Assembly: GCA_013287605.1 (NCBI GenBank)
Contig: JABDDM010000010.1
Span: 1 to 53,334, forward strand
DNA from: Ignavibacteria bacterium
GTDB lineage: Bacteria; Bacteroidota; Ignavibacteria; Palsa-1295
Length of the DNA: 53,334 nt
Direction of reading: 5' to 3'
Shown here: positions 29,555 through 49,513 of the stretch, one piece after another
Numbering within the stretch: position 1 is the stretch's first letter
Layout of the letters: the number at the start of each line of letters is the position of its first letter
Made by a program: the position numbers and the translations under genes
The notes under the pieces: generated by a model
The model's database searches: none
What the model saw: only the letters and a program-made list of their open reading frames with translations
Told to the model about the DNA's origin: nothing

Positions 29555-31177
29555 TCAATGTGCTTCGACCGGCTTTGCTCGGTAAACCATCCACCAGCCG
29601 ATTGTTGTATCCAGCGAGTAATTGTCGCGCAGCATTTCTTTGTAGCCTGGGATCCCCTCCAATGCGTGGTAGGGAAGATCTCGCAACAATTCATTGGATG
29701 GCGCTGGTGGCCCAAAGGCAGTGACGAAATACTTTGGTCGAATCACTCGAATTGAATCTACGAACTCCTGTCGCCACTTTTGTTCATAAGGTGGGAAGCT
29801 CCCGTCAGGTTTCGATATCATGATATGAACAATTGATGTGAACTGCGATGATGACTCCAGTCCTGTCCGATACATCAACCAGGGATCCAGACATGCAAAT
29901 TCGACTCGGTCTGTAGGTTTTGAATTCGACCGGATATACGAAGCCAACTCAACTTGTTTGCGGTACCCGTTAACAGAATCTGGGCTGTGTTTGTCTTGGA
30001 TAAATGTTAAGCGGTCAGGCGCGTTCGCAGCAATGGCCTGATAATAAAACTTCGCATACTTCCATGGATAAAATAAAAGCAGACTGACGAGCAGCAAGAC
30101 GACGCACGCCAGTTTGTAAGACTTCTCATTGCCCCTGAAATATCGTTCAGTCGTGACTGCAAGGAGGATGGCTGATAATTGGTAAAGTGGCTCGAAATGA
30201 TATCGAAAATACTTTCCCATCCACATGATGGAAATGATCGACCCGACAAGATATCCCGCGATAAGTAATGCTTCGGGGCTCCAGGTTCTTCCGACTTTCC
30301 TCTTTCCTGTAGCGCTATTACGGAGCCAGACGATAAGTGCAAATGCGAGTGCAACAAGAAATACTAACCAGTGCTTCCAAATTCCTGGATCCAACAGCGA
30401 ATGCCGGTACTTCATTGTTCCATACACTTCCACATTGAACTTGATCAAGGCGGTGTAGATGGACGCCATCCTTCCAGGCATCGCAAAGTATGGCGAGAAT
30501 GCTGCTACAATTGCTGCGACCACGCCAAATGCGTAAACAGTAGCAACCAGCCATCGTCCGTTATTGAGCGTGAGAAGTATGACGACACCTAGCCAAAGCG
30601 AAAGGAGTCCAAACGTTGGACGCAACAGTATAACCAAGCCCATGAGCAGCCCCGCGGCAGCAGCAAGGAATATCTGTTTGCCTGCAGGAAACGGGCGGTC
30701 TTTGATTCGGAAATACAAGATCGTTGCGAAGACCACGGTGATCATTGCGAACGCATCTCGTTGACCGCCAGACCAATCCGAGTTCGACAAATAGATTTCG
30801 CACGAAAGCAACGCCGCAACGAGCGCAGTAAATGGTTTGTGTGAGCGGCGAACCAGGAGATAGATGCCTAAACCCTGAAATAAGTGCAGCGTGGCGTCAA
30901 ACGCACCAAATCCAATTTCTGAGTTGCCAAACAGAAGCCAGGAAATTCCATGAAAATAGAAAATCCCAGGAAAATTTTGATCGAACGTTCCGACGTAGGG
31001 AATTCGGCCAAATTTTAACCATTGCCACGCGATCGATTGATAGAGCGCATTGTCCCAATTTAGTGGACGGACCAGATTGATAACTAAGATGACGGCGCAT
31101 CCAGCAATCGCAAACCACCATTCGCGTTCTTGCCAGACTGATGTTTTGACTGATGAGGACTCGGGGGAGAGAGACAT
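29555..31177 (-). CDS. GT39-like polytopic membrane protein, copy 1
   Basis: 540 aa with about ten to eleven membrane helices and a C-terminal soluble domain of ~150 residues. The first outer loop has WDNALYQSIAWQWLKFGR and YVGTFDQNFPG, with acidic residues where GT-C glycosyltransferases (PMT/ArnT type) keep their catalytic Asp. WMGKYFRYHFEPLYQLSAIL and YSLDTTIGWWMVYRAKP are shared by all three paralogs. It probably transfers a sugar from a lipid-linked donor at the outer face of the inner membrane, but donor and acceptor are unknown. It has its own TAAGTTTG box between it and prfB. Confidence 0.75.
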   Translation of the reverse strand: MSLSPESSSVKTSVWQEREWWFAIAGCAVILVINLVRPLNWDNALYQSIAWQWLKFGRIPYVGTFDQNFPGIFYFHGISWLLFGNSEIGFGAFDATLHLFQGLGIYLLVRRSHKPFTALVAALLSCEIYLSNSDWSGGQRDAFAMITVVFATILYFRIKDRPFPAGKQIFLAAAAGLLMGLVILLRPTFGLLSLWLGVVILLTLNNGRWLVATVYAFGVVAAIVAAFSPYFAMPGRMASIYTALIKFNVEVYGTMKYRHSLLDPGIWKHWLVFLVALAFALIVWLRNSATGKRKVGRTWSPEALLIAGYLVGSIISIMWMGKYFRYHFEPLYQLSAILLAVTTERYFRGNEKSYKLACVVLLLVSLLLFYPWKYAKFYYQAIAANAPDRLTFIQDKHSPDSVNGYRKQVELASYIRSNSKPTDRVEFACLDPWLMYRTGLESSSQFTSIVHIMISKPDGSFPPYEQKWRQEFVDSIRVIRPKYFVTAFGPPAPSNELLRDLPYHALEGIPGYKEMLRDNYSLDTTIGWWMVYRAKPVEAH

Positions 31178-31254: not shown

Positions 31255-32410
31255 CTACACGTCGTCGCTATCTTCGCCATCCGCGACCTTCAGCTTGCCA
31301 CCTTCATAGAGAAGATAATTCTTCATGAAGTCGGTGATGTCGCCATCCATGACTGCCTGTACGTCGGTTTTTGCAAACTTGGTACGATGGTCTTTTACCA
31401 TCGTATATGGCTGGAAGACATACGACCGAATCTGTGACCCCCAACTGATGATCTTCTTTGATCCTTCGATCGCGGCAAGGCGTGCTTCTTCGACCTCTTT
31501 GTCTATATGTGCAATTCGCGATTTCAGCATCTTCATCGCTCGTTCGCCATTCTGAAACTGCGAACGCTCTTCCTGACAAGCAGCCACAACGATATGCTGC
31601 ACACCGGTCGAGTCGGTGTACTTATAAGTTAGTCGCACCGCAGTCTCGACCTTATTCACGTTCTGACCGCCTTTGCCGCCGGACCGATATGTATCGCGCT
31701 GCAGCAATGCCGGATTCAAAACGATCTCAGTGGTCTCTTCTTCGAGAATGGGGTAAGAGTAAACGCTGGCAAAGCTCGTGTGGCGTCTGGCGTTCGAATC
31801 ATAGGGTGAAATTCGCACGAGACGATGGACACCGTTCTCGGCTTTGAGATACCCAAAGGCATTCTCGCCCTTGATCTCAAGCATAGCCGATTTGATGCCG
31901 GCTGCTTCACCTGGTTGTTCATCCATGAGCGCGACCTTGAAGCCCTGACGCTCCGCCCATCGCGTATACATTCGCTCGAGCATCTCTGCCCAGTCGTTTG
32001 CTTCCGTGCCACCCTGGCCTGCATTGACAATGATAATTGCGTCCTTATTATCGTCGGGACCCGAAAGCATCACAGCAACTTCCTGCTGGGTGAGATCGCT
32101 TGACATCCGCTCGAACTCCTCATTGACCTGAGGCATGAGAGAAGGATCTTCTGCGGCAAGCTCCAGCAGACCTTCTGCATCATCGAGGCGTGTCTTTAAC
32201 TTCCGGTAGGCGTCGCGTTCCTGTTTAAGGCGCGATGCTTCCTGCATCAGCTTTTGAGCTGTTCTGTTGTCGTTCCAGAAGTCGGGCTTCGAGGACTCTT
32301 CTTCTAATTGGTCTATACGGCGTTCTTTGCGACCGAGGTCAAAGAGAGTCGCCGAGGTCCGCGAGACGGTCGCGTAGTTCGGCAATAGAGGTGGATGAAA
32401 TCTCAGTCAT
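31255..32410 (-). CDS. prfB: Peptide chain release factor 2, programmed +1 frameshift
   Basis: The true start is ATG 32410. It reads 23 codons (start TEISSTSIAELRDRLADLGD) to an in-frame TGA at 32341-32339 inside CTTTGAC. A +1 slip joins it to the long frame ending at 31255, for a product of ~384 aa. The start in that long frame (TTG 32385) is an artefact. RF2 recognises UGA and UAA. The GGQ motif is in RSGGKGGQNVNK. The anticodon-like tripeptide is SPY (RISPYDSNARRHTSF), not the usual SPF. The C-terminus is longer and more acidic than in E. coli. It lies between two GT39-like paralogs. Confidence 0.93.
32338..32344 (-). promoter_or_regulatory. prfB recoding site CTTTGAC
   Basis: Minus-strand CTT TGA C at codons 23-24 of prfB, identical to the classical RF2 autoregulatory slippery site. 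Low RF2 lets the ribosome slip to GAC and continue. No strong internal Shine-Dalgarno is seen just upstream (GGCGACTCT), unlike the AGGGGG in E. coli. Confidence 0.93.
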
Positions 32411-32524
32411 GATTGCGGTCGCGAAAAAATCGTTACGAATGAAAAAATCGTCTTGTCTATGGACGCCTTCTAACCGATTCCCGGCAAATAAAATTCGGAC
32501 AAGGCCAACGCGGAGTACTTTGCG

Positions 32525-34132
32525 TTAATGAGCATTAAGTGGCTTCGCACGATAAACCAGCCAATAGCCGATCGTTGTATCCAGCGAGTAATTCGCATTG
32601 AGCATCTCTTTGTAGCCCGGGATTCCCTCCAGTGCGCGATAGGGTGCATTTTGGAAAAACCCTCCATCGGGTCCGAGGGCAGTTACGAAAAATATTGGCC
32701 TGATGACTCGGATCGAATCTACAAACTCCTGCCGCCACTTTTGTTCATATAGTGGGAAGCTACCGTCTGGTTTTGAAACCATTATATGAAGGAGTGAGGT
32801 AAATTGTGAAGAAGGCTCCAGTCCAGTCAGGTAGAATAAGCGGGGATCCATACACGCAAATTCGACTCTGTCTGTGGGCTTTGACTTTGATCGTATATAC
32901 GAAGCCAGTTCAACTTGTCTGCGATAGCCGCTCAAGGAATCGGGGAAGTCTTCGGATGCGACGAATGCTAATCGATCAGGTGCGTTCGCAGCAATAGCCT
33001 TATAATAAAACTTGGCGACCCTCCATGGATAAAATACAATTAGGCCGACCAGGATAAGGCCAATGCACGCAATCGTACGGTACTTGTCATTGCGCTGGAA
33101 ATACCGTTCGATCGTGACTACAAGAAGGATGAATGAGAATTGGTACAGCGGCTCGAAATGATATCGAAAAAACTTTCCCATCCACATGATTGAAACGAAC
33201 GCTCCGACAAGATAACCCGCAATGAGCAGTAATTCAGGGTTTCGTTTTCCGTTAGTTTTTTCTGTTCCGCTAACTCGTTTACGAAGCCACACAAAGAGCG
33301 CGAACGCAACAGCTATGAAGAACACCAACCAGTGTTTCCAAACCGTAGGCTCCCAGGGTGAGCGCCGATACTTCGTCGCTCCGTACACCTCTGTGTTGAA
33401 CCTTATCAAGTCGGTATAGAGTGATCCCAGCATGCCAGGCATTGCTAAGTAAGGCGAGAACGCAATTACAATGGCAGCAATTACTCCAAACGAATATGCA
33501 GAAGCGGTCAGCCATCGTCCTCTCTCCAGCGTCAAAAGCATGACTGCCCCAAGCCAGAGTGTGCAGAGTGCATACGTAGGTCGCAAAAGGATCATCAATC
33601 CCATGAGCAGTCCTGCGGCAACAGCGAGGAATATCTGCTTGCCGGTAGTGAGAGGCCGGTCATTAATCCTGAAATACAAGATAGTTGCGAATACTAATAC
33701 GACCACTGCGAATGCATCGCGCTGACCGACAGACTCACCCGGCAAGTAAACTTCGCACGAAAGAAGTGCTGCGGTTAGCGCGGTCAGGGGTTTGTGCGAG
33801 CGGCGGACCAGGAGATAGATGCCCATCGCCTCCAACAGATGAAGCGAAGTCTCCAGCACTCGGAATCCAAATTCCGAAGTCCCAAACAAAAGGATGGAAA
33901 TTGCATGGAAGTATATAACTCCCGGAAAGTTTTGATCGAATGTTCCGACGTAGGGCATTCTGCCATATCGAACCCACTCCCACGCGATTGATTGATAGAG
34001 CGCGTTATCCCAGATGAGAGGACGGACGAGATTGACCGCTAATACGATGCAGCATCCCCCAATGGCGAACCACCATTCGCGTTCTTGCCAGAGTGATGTT
34101 CTTGGTGAGGAGGATGTGGAAGAAGAAGACAT
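32525..34132 (-). CDS. GT39-like polytopic membrane protein, copy 2
   Basis: 535 aa, closely similar along its whole length to copies 1 and 3 (EREWWFAIGG, WDNALYQSIAWEWVRYGR, YVGTFDQNFPG, WMGKFFRYHFEPLYQFS, YSLDTTIGYWLVYRAKP). About ten to eleven helices precede a soluble C-terminal domain. The paralogs also share long nucleotide stretches near their 3' ends, which points to recent duplication. It follows copy 3 by 7 bases and is probably co-transcribed with it. prfB follows 114 bases downstream. Function as in copy 1: a likely GT-C glycosyltransferase with unknown substrate. Confidence 0.75.
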   Translation of the reverse strand: MSSSSTSSSPRTSLWQEREWWFAIGGCCIVLAVNLVRPLIWDNALYQSIAWEWVRYGRMPYVGTFDQNFPGVIYFHAISILLFGTSEFGFRVLETSLHLLEAMGIYLLVRRSHKPLTALTAALLSCEVYLPGESVGQRDAFAVVVLVFATILYFRINDRPLTTGKQIFLAVAAGLLMGLMILLRPTYALCTLWLGAVMLLTLERGRWLTASAYSFGVIAAIVIAFSPYLAMPGMLGSLYTDLIRFNTEVYGATKYRRSPWEPTVWKHWLVFFIAVAFALFVWLRKRVSGTEKTNGKRNPELLLIAGYLVGAFVSIMWMGKFFRYHFEPLYQFSFILLVVTIERYFQRNDKYRTIACIGLILVGLIVFYPWRVAKFYYKAIAANAPDRLAFVASEDFPDSLSGYRRQVELASYIRSKSKPTDRVEFACMDPRLFYLTGLEPSSQFTSLLHIMVSKPDGSFPLYEQKWRQEFVDSIRVIRPIFFVTALGPDGGFFQNAPYRALEGIPGYKEMLNANYSLDTTIGYWLVYRAKPLNAH

Positions 34133-34139
34133 TTATCTG

Positions 34140-35762
34140 TTAGTGATCTTTGAATGGCTTTACCCGATAAACCAGCCACCAGCCGATCGTTGTGTCAAGC
34201 GAGTAATTGGAGTTTAACATCTCTTTGTAGCCTGGGATCGCCTCCAACGACCGTGAAGGAACATCTGGCAAAAACTCATCCTGAGCAGGTGTGGGACCTA
34301 AGGCGGTAACAAAGAACTTTGGTCTGATTGTCCGAATCGAATCGAGAAACTCCTGCTGCCACTCTTGCTCATACTGCGGGTAACTTCCATCCGGTTTTGT
34401 GATCACGATATGCATTACAGAGGTAAACTTCGAAGTCAATTCAAGCTCGGTTCGATAGCTTAGCCAGGGATCGGCACACGCAAATTCGACTCGGTCAGAA
34501 GACTTTGAATTCAATCGGATATACGATGCTAACTCCACTTGTTTGCGATAGCCACTCAGCGCGTCAGGATACTGTTCGGCTGCGACGAATGCTAACCGGT
34601 CATGTGCGTTCGATCGAACAGCCTGATAATAAAACTTTGCAATCTTCCATGGATAGAATAGGGCAAGACTTACAAAAAGCAATGCGATGCACGCGATTGT
34701 CCGATACTTGTCGTTGGCTCGGAAATATCTCTCGATGCTCACCGCAAGAAGAATAACTGAGAATTGATACAGTGGCTCGAAATGCGTTCGAAAGTATTTT
34801 CCCATCCACACGATCGAGATGAATGCTCCCGCAAGATATCCTGCGATAAGAAGCAATTCAGTGTTCCTCGCTATCCAGTCTTTCCGCCTGACGGAGGAAC
34901 GACTACGCATGCCAACCCATAGCGAGAATGTAACAGCGATAATCACAAGCGACCAATGCTTCCATGCATCTGCTTGCCACGGTGTGCGTCTGTATTTCGA
35001 TGTTCCATATACGTCCATGTTAAACTTAACGAGAGCGGTATAGATGAAGTCCATCATGCCCGGCATCGCGAGATACGGCCAGAACGAAGCTGCAACAGCC
35101 CCGATAGCACCGATTGTGTACACAGTGGCAATGAACAATCGACGCTCCCTCAATGTGAGAAGCATAATAACACCGAGCCAAATCGCGAACAGGGCATAGG
35201 TAGGGCGAAGAAGGATCACAAGTCCCATCAGCAGTCCGATAACAAGCGCGATACATAGCTGCATTGCAGTTCGAAGCGGATGATCGCGTAAACGGAAATA
35301 CATGATCGTTGCAAAGACCAAGGCGACCATTGCAAACGCATCACGCTGGCCAACAGACCAATCAGAGCCCGATAGATAAATAGCGCACGAGAGCAGCGCC
35401 GCGGTTAATGCGGTAAGCGGTTTGTGCGAGCGGCGGACCAGATAATAAATGCCCATGGCTTCGAGGAGGTGAAGCGCCGTTTCGAGCACGCGAAATCCAA
35501 TTTCCGAGGTCCCAAATAGTAAGCAGGAAATTGCATGAAAATAGAGTATGCCAGGGAAATTCTGGTCGAAGGTGCCAACATAAAGCTTTCTGCCGAACTC
35601 TACCCACTGCCATGCGATTGACTGGTAGAGAGCATTATCATGGTGAAGAGGACGAGCAAGATTGACTGCTAAAATGAGGGCACAGCCACCAATGGCAAAC
35701 CACCATTCCCGCTCATGCCAAACTGATATTTTTGAAGAGGGGGACGTTGAAATGTCCGACAT
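34140..35762 (-). CDS. GT39-like polytopic membrane protein, copy 3
   Basis: 540 aa from ATG 35762. I prefer this over the in-frame start at 35795 because it aligns with the N-termini of copies 1 and 2 and because a TAACTTTG box overlaps 35795. The sequence keeps EREWWFAIGG, NALYQSIAWQWVEFGRKLYV, TFDQNFPG, WMGKYFRTHFEPLYQFS and YSLDTTIGWWLVYR. The first loop has HHDNALYQ in place of WDNALYQ, so the Asp is kept. It is the first gene of a two-gene operon with copy 2. Confidence 0.75.
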   Translation of the reverse strand: MSDISTSPSSKISVWHEREWWFAIGGCALILAVNLARPLHHDNALYQSIAWQWVEFGRKLYVGTFDQNFPGILYFHAISCLLFGTSEIGFRVLETALHLLEAMGIYYLVRRSHKPLTALTAALLSCAIYLSGSDWSVGQRDAFAMVALVFATIMYFRLRDHPLRTAMQLCIALVIGLLMGLVILLRPTYALFAIWLGVIMLLTLRERRLFIATVYTIGAIGAVAASFWPYLAMPGMMDFIYTALVKFNMDVYGTSKYRRTPWQADAWKHWSLVIIAVTFSLWVGMRSRSSVRRKDWIARNTELLLIAGYLAGAFISIVWMGKYFRTHFEPLYQFSVILLAVSIERYFRANDKYRTIACIALLFVSLALFYPWKIAKFYYQAVRSNAHDRLAFVAAEQYPDALSGYRKQVELASYIRLNSKSSDRVEFACADPWLSYRTELELTSKFTSVMHIVITKPDGSYPQYEQEWQQEFLDSIRTIRPKFFVTALGPTPAQDEFLPDVPSRSLEAIPGYKEMLNSNYSLDTTIGWWLVYRVKPFKDH

Positions 35763-35792
35763 TGGTGATTGGGCAATGATTGATACGAGAGA

Positions 35793-35800
35793 CAAAGTTA
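35793..35800 (-). promoter_or_regulatory. -7 box for GT39-like copies 3 and 2
   Basis: Minus-strand TAACTTTG, an exact TAnnTTTG match 31 bases before the preferred start of copy 3. No good TTG is at the -33 distance. Confidence 0.5.
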
Positions 35801-46060: not shown

Positions 46061-47644
46061 ATGTTCTCTAAATGCCTCTCCGGTACTACGCAAGGTATCA
46101 CTGCGTACACTGTCGAAATCGAAACTCACGTTGAGGGCAATGTCCCCAACTTCATTATGGTCGGACTTCCCGATTCTGCCGTAAAAGAAAGCAAGGAGCG
46201 TGTGATCGCTGCGATGAAGAATTCGGCGATCCAGTTCGAATTCTCGAAGCGCATTACCGTAAACCTGGCGCCTGCTGACATTCGCAAGGAGGGGAGTGCT
46301 TTCGACCTTCCGATCGCGTTGGGATTGCTAGCCACAACGGGCAGCGTCGAAGCGCAGCGTCTCAATCAATTCATGCTCTTGGGTGAGCTTGCACTTGACG
46401 GAACATTGCGGCCGATCCACGGAGCGCTGAATATCGCGCTGCATGTTCGTAAGCTGAAAGAGACTTTTCCCGAACTCAAAGGGATGATCCTGCCCGACGA
46501 AAACGCGAAGGAAGCTGCGCTCGTCTCGGAGATTGATGTGTATGCTGCAAAGACATTGCGAGAGGCTGTTGAACTCTTGAATGGAACTTCTCAAAAGACG
46601 AAAGTAGAAGTTGATATCCAATCTTTATTCAGTGAAGATGTCTATGAGATGCAGCATCTGGATTTTGCTGAAGTCAAAGGTCAGGAAGCAGTTAAGCGTG
46701 CACTTGAAGTAGCAGCAGCCGGTGGTCACAATCTGATCATGGTTGGCTCGCCAGGTTCGGGAAAGAGCATGCTGGCAAAGCGCTTTCCCTCGATCCTGCC
46801 GCCACTCGAATTCGATGAAGCACTCGAAACGACGAAGATCCATTCGGTTGCGGGTATTCTTCCTCCGGGCGTGCCGCTCGTTACGATGCGTCCGTTTCGA
46901 TCGCCGCATCACACGATCTCGGATGCTGCACTTGTTGGCGGCGGTATGCGGAACATTCGACCTGGTGAAATATCACTTTCGCACAACGGAGTTCTCTTCC
47001 TTGATGAACTTCCTGAATTCCAGCGCAATGTATTGGAAGTGTTGCGCCAACCACTCGAAGATGGTTGTGTCACGATCTCGCGGACAGCCATGACCGTCGA
47101 CTATCCGGCAAACTTCATGCTGATCTGCGCCATGAATCCATGTCCGTGCGGGAATTTTGGATCGACCGTGCATTCATGCACGTGTACTGAGCAAACGATC
47201 CAGCGATACATGAGCAAGATATCGGGACCGCTCCTCGATCGTATTGATATTCATGTCGAAGTGCCAAGCGTAAAGATCGAGGAGCTGTCGAAGAAATCTT
47301 CCGGCGAACGCTCGAGCGCAATTCGCGAGCGTGTACTCCGAGCGCGAGAAAAGCAGCGCGAGCGCTATCGCAGTCTCAACGGAAAATCGACTGGTCCGCG
47401 CGTGTACAAGAATGCCGATCTCAGTTCGAAGCTCGTACAGGAGTATTGCGAGATCATGGAAGACTCCAAACAGATTATGAAGATGGCGATGACCAGGATG
47501 GGCCTTTCAGCCAGAGCCTACGACCGCATCCTCAAGGTTTCAAGGACGATTGCAGACCTCGCAGGGGCCGAATCGATCACAACCGCTCACGTTAGTGAAG
47601 CCATTCAATACCGCACTCTTGACCGCCAATTTTGGAATGGGTAG
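46061..47644 (+). CDS. comM: YifB/ComM family Mg chelatase-like AAA+ ATPase
   Basis: 527 aa, typical length. The N-terminal ChlI-like (Lon-protease-type fold) domain spans ~20-170 (VEGNVPNFIMVGLPDSAVKE). Walker A is MVGSPGSGKSMLAKR, Walker B VLFLDELPEF, and PCPCGNFG plus SCTCTEQTIQRYMSKISGPL form the zinc-linked insertion of the family. The C-terminal domain carries MTRMGLSARAYDRILKVSRT. ComM is a hexameric branch-migration motor that extends integration of foreign DNA in natural transformation, which fits the presence of comF in the window. Confidence 0.92.
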   Translation: MFSKCLSGTTQGITAYTVEIETHVEGNVPNFIMVGLPDSAVKESKERVIAAMKNSAIQFEFSKRITVNLAPADIRKEGSAFDLPIALGLLATTGSVEAQRLNQFMLLGELALDGTLRPIHGALNIALHVRKLKETFPELKGMILPDENAKEAALVSEIDVYAAKTLREAVELLNGTSQKTKVEVDIQSLFSEDVYEMQHLDFAEVKGQEAVKRALEVAAAGGHNLIMVGSPGSGKSMLAKRFPSILPPLEFDEALETTKIHSVAGILPPGVPLVTMRPFRSPHHTISDAALVGGGMRNIRPGEISLSHNGVLFLDELPEFQRNVLEVLRQPLEDGCVTISRTAMTVDYPANFMLICAMNPCPCGNFGSTVHSCTCTEQTIQRYMSKISGPLLDRIDIHVEVPSVKIEELSKKSSGERSSAIRERVLRAREKQRERYRSLNGKSTGPRVYKNADLSSKLVQEYCEIMEDSKQIMKMAMTRMGLSARAYDRILKVSRTIADLAGAESITTAHVSEAIQYRTLDRQFWNG

Positions 47645-47676
47645 TATGCTGCGAGAAAATTATAACGACTTCTTAC

Positions 47677-47707
47677 TTGCAATTCGGCCAGAGTCTTAGT
47701 ATATTAG
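47677..47707 (+). promoter_or_regulatory. Promoter of the Cas6-like gene
   Basis: TTG at 47677-47679, 20 bases, TATATTAG at 47700-47707. The -7 box has one mismatch from TAnnTTTG; the spacing equals that of the consensus promoters in this window. Confidence 0.6.
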
Positions 47708-47713
47708 GAGCCG

Positions 47714-48113
47714 GGAGAAAGCTTCCCCTGAATAGCTTTCTCATAGCTACTTCCGGAGGAAGTGATGGTGCAGCCGTTGATTGCGTGAAATTCCTGTTCC
47801 TGGCGCTTTCCCTGTCAAGTTCTTTTTCAGTTATCAGAGTGTTGAGTCCTGTAAATGCGTGTACCAGAGCACGTCAGGACCAGTGGATCGGTTAAAAATA
47901 ACTCGCTGCCTCTTACAGAGATGTGTCTTTTCACATCCTTTCAAGCTGTCGCGAAGGTTGTCTCATTTGGATACGTAGAGTCGTTGCTGTTTGTAGAACC
48001 GGATAAATCCTAGCGGATCACCAACTTGCGAGATTAATGCGAGTTGAATCCACGTCCTGCCAGCATTGGACTTAAGTATTCTTTTCATCACTTACGAAGC
48101 ACACGAGGACTTC
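47714..48113 (+). other. ~400-nt structured leader of the Cas6-like gene
   Basis: Right at the predicted start is a hairpin: GAGAAAGCT (47715-47723), 10-base loop, AGCTTTCTC (47734-47742). A second, ACTTCC/GGAAGT at 47749-47763, contains the GGAGG of a 7-codon ORF at 47765-47788. A third is GATGTG/CACATC at 47920-47937. There is no CRISPR repeat pattern and no long ORF. Confidence 0.5.
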
Positions 48114-49154
48114 ATGCGTGTCCATATAAGGCTTACTCCGTCGGCGACCCATGGCCACATGCCGATTAATTATAATGCGTTCGTTTCCGAGTTCGTCTAT
48201 GAGGCGATCCAGCCTGATGTGCCGTTCGCAAAACAGCCGAAAGCAGGTCAGCAAGGTATTCCGTATTATACGTTTTCGAATCTCTATATTCCAGAGGTTC
48301 AGCAGGAAGACCGTACACTTCGTTTCGGGCAAGTTGAAATCGAGCTGACGATCTCGATGCTGCTCGAACCTGAATACAACGAGGAATTGCTCGCCAGACT
48401 CCGCAGCGTTCCTTCGCTGCTGTTCCCAACCAATATCGGTACAGAACTGCTTGTTTCGCAAATCACGCTCGTTGACGAGGCGACATCCGTCGCAAACTAT
48501 GCACGTTTTCGTATGCTTTCACCGCTTGCTTCGCCGATGTGGGATGCAGGGGATGGCAGTGAACCGCGATATGTGCATTATGGCGAGCCAGAGTTTACGG
48601 AGTCGATCCGTGGAATTCTCGTAGCGAAATACGAGCGCTGGAAAGGTCACAAGCCGCATGATACGCGTTTTCGTTTTACGCTCGATGAGAAATATGTGCA
48701 ACGCCGCCGCGGGCGGATCTCGAAACTTGTAACATTCCACGAAGGTGAAGAGGACGAGAAGAAGGTCAAAGCGATCGTCGCCCCGTTTGAAGTTGAGGGG
48801 AACCCCGAATTGATCTGGCTCGGTTATGTGGCGGGTTTTGGAGAGAAAAATCTTTTGGGCTTCGGTTGTGCCGATCTGGTCACAACCCCGGCGCGCGATC
48901 AGCGACAGCATCAGGAGCGGCCTGCCGGTCAGCATGAACCAGACCGGCGTAACGGCAGTGCGCCCCGCCCGGTGCGAAAGTTTGACGATCAGCGGAATGA
49001 TAGAGGCTATCAGCAACCGCGTAATGATGATCGATCTCAGAATTGGGACAGGCCAACTCCAAAACTCCGAGAGGAACGCTCGAACGCAGGACAGCCTTAT
49101 GCGGGCGGCGTAATGAATCATCACAGAGGCGGCGGGAAATTCAGTCCGCGCTAG
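48114..49154 (+). CDS. Orphan Cas6-like RAMP protein with disordered C-terminal tail
   Basis: 346 aa from ATG 48114 (GAGG 5 bases upstream; MRVHIRLTPS is the first strand of the Cas6 ferredoxin fold). INYNAFVSEFVYEAI matches the first helix and YYTFSNLYIP the FTFS strand. GFGEKNLLGFGC at 241-252 is the glycine-rich loop typical of Cas6. Cas6 cuts CRISPR precursor RNA, usually with a His between that helix and the FTFS strand; residues 31-50 here have no His. Residues ~257-346 form an added low-complexity tail rich in Arg, Gln, Asn, Asp and Pro, ending HHRGGGKFSPR, like RNA-binding disordered regions. No array or cas gene is near. tRNA-Ala begins 21 bases after its stop. Confidence 0.75.
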   Translation: MRVHIRLTPSATHGHMPINYNAFVSEFVYEAIQPDVPFAKQPKAGQQGIPYYTFSNLYIPEVQQEDRTLRFGQVEIELTISMLLEPEYNEELLARLRSVPSLLFPTNIGTELLVSQITLVDEATSVANYARFRMLSPLASPMWDAGDGSEPRYVHYGEPEFTESIRGILVAKYERWKGHKPHDTRFRFTLDEKYVQRRRGRISKLVTFHEGEEDEKKVKAIVAPFEVEGNPELIWLGYVAGFGEKNLLGFGCADLVTTPARDQRQHQERPAGQHEPDRRNGSAPRPVRKFDDQRNDRGYQQPRNDDRSQNWDRPTPKLREERSNAGQPYAGGVMNHHRGGGKFSPR

Positions 49155-49175: not shown

Positions 49176-49249
49176 GGGGTCGTAGCTCAGTTTGGCAGAG
49201 CGCCTGCATGGCATGCAGGAGGTCAGGGGTTCGACTCCCCTCGGCTCCA
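49176..49249 (+). tRNA. tRNA-Ala (anticodon GGC)
   Basis: 74 bases. The acceptor stem GGGGTCG pairs with CGGCTCC (G-T wobbles allowed). The anticodon stem CCTGC/GCAGG holds loop ATGGCAT with anticodon GGC. The T arm is AGGGG-TTCGACT-CCCCT. CCA is not encoded. It lies just downstream of the Cas6-like gene on the same strand. Confidence 0.95.
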
Positions 49250-49513
49250 CATTTTCTTACTCCTTCCTGCACGATGGACCCCTTCTCTTTTATTGAAAAT
49301 AGATAAGCTGTTTTTCTAATCTCCTCCCTAATCGCTGAGAATTCTCGTTCCGGAGCCAACTAATCAGATTCTTATTCGCGGTGAACAGCTTGTAACTTCG
49401 AAGCAAACGAAGCACTTGTAATGAATAACTTTTGTTACAATCGAGCTTCCAAACCCATGACTATAGTGGTGGGGGAGCGTCCAGCCCTGTAAGATTTTGT
49501 TTACCCTTCGCCT

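Follow-up and report, generated by a model that had tools for sequence, protein, structure and literature searches.

Is a cas6 gene that stands apart from any CRISPR locus still the gene of a crRNA-processing enzyme? This question is raised by an ORF of an Ignavibacteria bacterium, found in the window analysed here (the whole stretch of DNA, 53,334 nucleotides). A first-pass annotation had placed the ORF between a transformation ATPase and a tRNA gene. This location was confirmed, as the ATPase is ComM by its Mg_chelatase/ChlI domains and the tRNA is tRNA-Ala (GGC). The features of the locus are as follows.

46061..47644, + strand: comM (YifB-like, Mg-chelatase/ChlI AAA ATPase), the left border common to same-family genomes
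47645..48113, + strand: upstream gap of 469 bases from comM to the cas6-like gene, free of arrays and without a DNA match in same-family genomes
48105..48109, + strand: GAGGA, a possible ribosome-binding site read from the sequence
48114..49154, + strand: Cas6-like gene (ORF of 346 aa plus stop, and family matches)
48114..48887, + strand: Cas6 core, residues 1-258, double RRM/ferredoxin RAMP fold (AlphaFold model, Foldseek to Cas6)
48219..48263, + strand: altered catalytic loop, residues 36-50, with K43 in the His column and P50 in the Lys column (alignment of 62 homologues)
48834..48866, + strand: retained glycine-rich loop GFGEKNLLGFG, residues 241-251 (homologue alignment)
48888..49151, + strand: basic C-terminal tail, residues 259-346, predicted to be disordered
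49176..49250, + strand: tRNA-Ala (GGC), the right border common to most same-family genomes

The frame is intact over 346 codons, from the ATG at 48114 to the stop codon ending at 49154, and the protein starts with MR, as is typical of Cas6. The base composition of the gene resembles its surroundings. The synonymous codon preference exceeds that of random sequence by about 6 s.d. for the core and about 3 s.d. for the tail. Thus, both the core and the tail are host-like coding sequence.

Cas6 family and fold

It was found that the protein passes the curated cut-offs of Pfam PF01881 (Cas_Cas6_C; E 1.2e-19, 71.8 bits against a cut-off of 23) and of NCBIfam TIGR01877 (cas_cas6; 68.7 bits against 58.65). 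The PADLOC Cas6b model matches it at 4e-30, and Cas6 chains of the PDB match it by phmmer at 1e-6 to 9e-5. PF10040 does not match the protein; a search of its own genome with that model was uninformative, since the model misses the query too. An AlphaFold model was built from an alignment of 63 sequences. Its pLDDT is mostly above 90 across the core, with the exception of residues 31-50, which are of low confidence. The model contains two RRM/ferredoxin domains with the Cas6 fold, and Foldseek matched it to Cas6 chains with E values of 2e-16 to 1e-13 and target TM values of 0.78-0.83. The top-ranking entries are 3qjj from P. horikoshii and 3ufc from P. furiosus, followed by 5yi6 and then by the catalytic P. 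furiosus Cas6 3i4h. The first-pass assignment to the Cas6-type RAMPs thus withstood both the curated cut-offs and the comparison with solved Cas6 structures, and the fold prediction, which might have spoken against a RAMP, returned Cas6. Judging from sequence and model together, the protein is a genuine and very divergent Cas6 relative.

Matches were found in 69 of 294 genomes of the class, the genome of the window included, and the identity to any homologue is 33% or less. The nearest relative (L110:9111-9905, genome G226) is an Ignavibacteria/Bacteroidota type I-B Cas6 (Cas6b) with 31% identity and the same domain architecture. It differs from the present protein in that it keeps the canonical LHEHGF motif, heads a type I-B operon (cas6-cas8b-cas7-cas5-cas3), and has no tail. 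The Cas6-like protein is probably of the type I-B/III kind and has diverged fast; its end branch in the tree measures 1.46 changes per site with no close sister, and searches of genome contigs, viral contigs, plasmids, and phages with the protein returned no close relative. A distant Cas6 relative (24%) lies on a single IMG/VR contig (L204:3770-4480).

Low identity might suggest that the protein is not a Cas6 at all, or that the contig was mis-binned. However, the curated cut-offs and the fold speak against the former, while the comM and tRNA-Ala borders, which are common to same-family genomes, and a comM about 75% identical to those of the same family speak against the latter. Either error is very improbable.

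Active site

Is the active site of Cas6 retained? At the position of Lys43 in the Cas6-like protein, 57 of the 62 aligned homologues carry a His, and at that of Pro50, 58 of the 62 carry a Lys. Where K43 falls depends on the alignment, as the loop is several residues shorter, while His is absent from the loop either way; the first-pass observation that residues 31-50 hold no His is correct. Position 168, Asn in 61 of 62 homologues, is Ile. On the other hand, Tyr29, invariant among the aligned homologues, is retained, as are G241, G243, K245, G249, and G251 of the glycine-rich loop, which are common to all 62.

The catalytic triad of P. furiosus Cas6 consists of Tyr31, His46, and Lys52; the activity of Y31A and H46A was undetectable, and K52A caused a 40-fold loss (PMC3652601). 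The His and the Lys of this enzyme fall in the same alignment columns as K43 and P50. Two of the three triad positions are therefore changed, with the Tyr and the glycine loop kept, and by the P. furiosus standard the canonical site appears from the alignment to be gone. The protein remains in the Cas6 family despite this, because the His is usual but not universal in Cas6. In Sulfolobus solfataricus, Cas6-1 has an active site that likewise lacks the canonical His, and Sulfolobus Cas6 without the His is still active through basic residues (PMC3652601). Since this is so, the inactivity of the present protein can only be inferred, and the loss of the His does not decide between a host-RNA role and crRNA processing in trans. 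The Sulfolobus proteins Cas6-1 and Cas6-3 differ from it in being demonstrated active enzymes of a CRISPR-rich genome, and their fold match (4ill/4ilm) is weaker.

Both by sequence and by fold, the closest solved structures are the Pyrococcus Cas6 paralogues, namely 3ufc (P. furiosus) and 3qjj/3qjl/3qjp (P. horikoshii PH0350), the latter of which reportedly binds RNA. Their loop also has no LH motif, the best phmmer matches to them lack the His, and 3ufc has been called non-catalytic (PMC3652601). A Cas6 fold without the catalytic His, as found here, is the pattern of the non-catalytic Pyrococcus type. The paralogues differ from the Cas6-like protein in that they are archaeal, share only 19-22% identity with it, and have no 88-aa tail.

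Homologues without the catalytic His

Five of the 62 aligned homologues are also His-less, four of them in one Nitrospirota clade (L111, L113, L117, L120) and one in Ignavibacteriales (L158). Like the present gene, they have no cas gene or array nearby. They differ in having no tail, and the Nitrospirota proteins have K/R in the Lys column. In the tree, they are separate from the Cas6-like protein; a placement beside another His-less group was discarded, as its support is weak (80/32) and may reflect long-branch attraction. An array or a cas gene lies near 20 of 25 His-bearing loci and 0 of 4 His-less loci (Fisher p = 0.005), counting loci flanked by 5 kb or more on both sides after removal of a microsatellite, in a comparison that was picked after seeing the data, includes a non-independent Nitrospirota clade, and detects cas genes from few seed families. 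The comparison is suggestive of a link between loss of the His and isolation of the locus. The microsatellite, CACAAGT at L120, had appeared as an array.

Several other observations concern these homologues. In the Nitrospirota clade, isolated genes without the canonical His (L111:10001-10756, L113:2042-2806, L117:10001-10768, L120:10001-10765, and L112:3693-4454, Ca. Magnetobacterium casense being among the hosts) each lie amid non-cas genes, with Cas1 elsewhere in most genomes; of four Nitrospirota genomes in the clade, three have a strong Cas1 match and the fourth has a weaker one. The isolated Ignavibacteriales homologue (L158:9962-10753) has a Glu in the Lys column. One genus has two Cas6 genes per genome (L004, L005, and L061 versus L008 and L009, in G056, G047, and G100). 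Where both could be read, one Cas6 has an LH-like His and the other does not (KRLKDLG).

CRISPR context of the window, the genome, and the family

The first-pass annotation had reported no other cas gene and no array in the 53 kb, and I reached the same result. A PADLOC scan of 34 of the larger ORFs of the window yielded no further cas protein, and array searches of the window were empty. The typeIV_DinG and RT_UG29 matches of PADLOC were rejected, since they fall on a helicase-like ORF and a DnaG-like primase. No cas8b, cas7, cas5, or cas3 of a type I-B locus lies beside the cas6-like gene in the window.

The assembly of this genome comprises 2.2 Mb in 101 contigs and is 67.7% complete, so that about a third is missing. 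In this assembled part, Cas1 and the type III RAMP family PF03787 gave no match, and clustered repeats with a GAAAC or GAAAG end, as in Cas6-type arrays, were absent; array-pattern matches were fewer than in the control and unclustered. The sole match to the Cas3 model is Mfd by its sequence. The search covered Cas1, PF03787, Cas3, and the GAAAC/GAAAG repeats. Within this scope, no complete CRISPR locus that the protein might serve was found in the assembled 68% of the genome. Is a CRISPR system common in the family? No Cas6 homologue was found in 12 other same-family genomes. Cas1 is present in 3 of 13 family genomes, adjoining a Cas2-like gene, and two of these also have Cas9-like fragments (Cas2 and Cas9 named by eye). 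Thus, the Cas1 loci detected in the family look like type II. Type II systems do not use Cas6.

It may be speculated that the protein is an atypical Cas6, possibly with a lysine-based site, which processes crRNA in trans for a type I-B/III system in the unassembled third or on a plasmid. In type III loci, Cas6 mostly acts in trans (PMC12669027). K43 lies near the position of the His, and the Sulfolobus enzyme is active through basic residues; the incompleteness of the genome leaves room for such a system, and several isolated His-less Nitrospirota genes occur in genomes with Cas1 elsewhere. In contrast, the assembled genome yielded no Cas1, RAMP, Cas3, or GAAAC/GAAAG-type array, the family's Cas1 loci look like the type that has no use for Cas6, the His and Lys columns are both changed, and the tail was found in no crRNA processor compared. 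I regard crRNA processing in trans as credible but rather unlikely.

The comM-tRNA-Ala gap and the C-terminal tail

Are the position of the gene and its tail conserved? Of 11 same-family genomes compared, 9 have tRNA-Ala (GGC) 60 to about 2000 bases after comM. The gap is either empty or contains a small membrane-like protein, an ABC-F-like ATPase, or a TauE-like protein (names by eye). Thus, the borders recur while the cas6-like gene does not, and what lies between them varies, as same-family genomes carry other genes or nothing there. The region downstream of comM in L099-L109 varies within the family, a 132-aa membrane-like protein being among its contents, and may be an insertion spot.

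The tail consists of 88 aa (16 R, 10 P, 9 Q, 9 G, 8 D, and 6 N; net charge +7). It is basic and of low complexity, and the AlphaFold model predicts it to be disordered. A tail of about 90 residues had been described as unusual for Cas6 and rich in Arg, Gln, and Asn. The former holds, as the tail is absent from all of about 100 homologues examined, whereas its composition is rather R/P/Q/G/D-rich. A homology search in its own genome found only the tail itself. A frameshift origin is unsupported, as the frame is open and codon-biased, and comparison by eye with the small gap proteins of relatives (about 132 aa, one membrane-like segment) showed no likeness.

Alternatively, the gene may be a decaying remnant, which lost constraint after its CRISPR system vanished and whose tail is drifted read-through sequence. 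The very long branch, the changes at near-invariant positions (H, K, N168), and the lack of a system to serve would agree with decay. However, the 346-codon frame is intact, the synonymous codons of core and tail are host-like, the fold is confident, and the glycine loop and the Tyr are kept. Decay is rather unlikely.

Proposed retention of Cas6 as a single gene

What, then, is the most plausible explanation? I propose that this is a type I-B/III Cas6 kept as a single gene, its CRISPR system lost or never co-acquired, and that it is most likely an RNA binder (probability roughly 0.48). In favour of this explanation are the Cas6 family membership and fold, the lack of Cas1, RAMP, Cas3, and Cas6-type arrays in the assembled genome, the lack of Cas6 in the 12 same-family genomes, and the isolation of the other His-less homologues. 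The intact frame and the host codon preference of both core and tail point the same way. So do the Pyrococcus paralogues as the closest structures, with 3ufc called non-catalytic (PMC3652601), and the change of two triad positions with Tyr and glycine loop retained. On the basis of sequence and model, an RNA binder is more likely than a canonical crRNA processor. Against this explanation count the 68% completeness, the activity of Sulfolobus Cas6 without the His (PMC3652601), the lack of a close relative to show selection or tail conservation, and the uncertainty of the His/Lys alignment in detail.

Under the single-gene explanation, the CRISPR system would have been lost or never acquired with cas6, or it may lie in the unassembled part, and the lone gene would stay in the comM-tRNA-Ala gap. 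With His and Lys lost, CRISPR repeats would no longer be cut in the usual way. A short RNA may be bound in the Cas6 cleft and by the conserved glycine loop; the tail, which is basic and predicted to be disordered, may add non-specific RNA affinity or contact a partner. A bolder version is that the Cas6 was domesticated outside CRISPR, with a dead core and a newly gained disordered RNA-binding tail acting on host RNA in a cell with no class 1 system; this is possible but on the whole doubtful. The first-pass interpretation is supported in part: the gene is indeed an orphan in its contig with a Cas6 fold, no His, and a tail, while the roles offered there, host-RNA repurposing and trans-acting crRNA processing, are both possible.

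There is precedent for Cas6 acting on non-CRISPR RNA, as Sulfolobus Cas6-3 also processes such an RNA (PMC4041471). Solo Cas4 genes outside CRISPR loci are documented (PMC5704561). The open-licence literature searched did not describe any solo Cas6 that bears a tail and lacks the usual active site. If functional, the protein would indicate that a crRNA processor can be retained as an RNA-binding protein. If Cas6 was domesticated in this way, and its isolated His-less counterparts behave alike, such retention would have occurred more than once. The Cas6-like protein is small enough for direct testing.

Other features of the window

Elsewhere in the window, prfB (RF2; 31258-32411, - strand) seems to contain, close to its start, the programmed +1 frameshift (CTT TGA C) that is usual for this gene. 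It is flanked by three similar membrane-protein paralogues of about 540 aa (29558-31177, 32528-34132, and 34143-35795, - strand).
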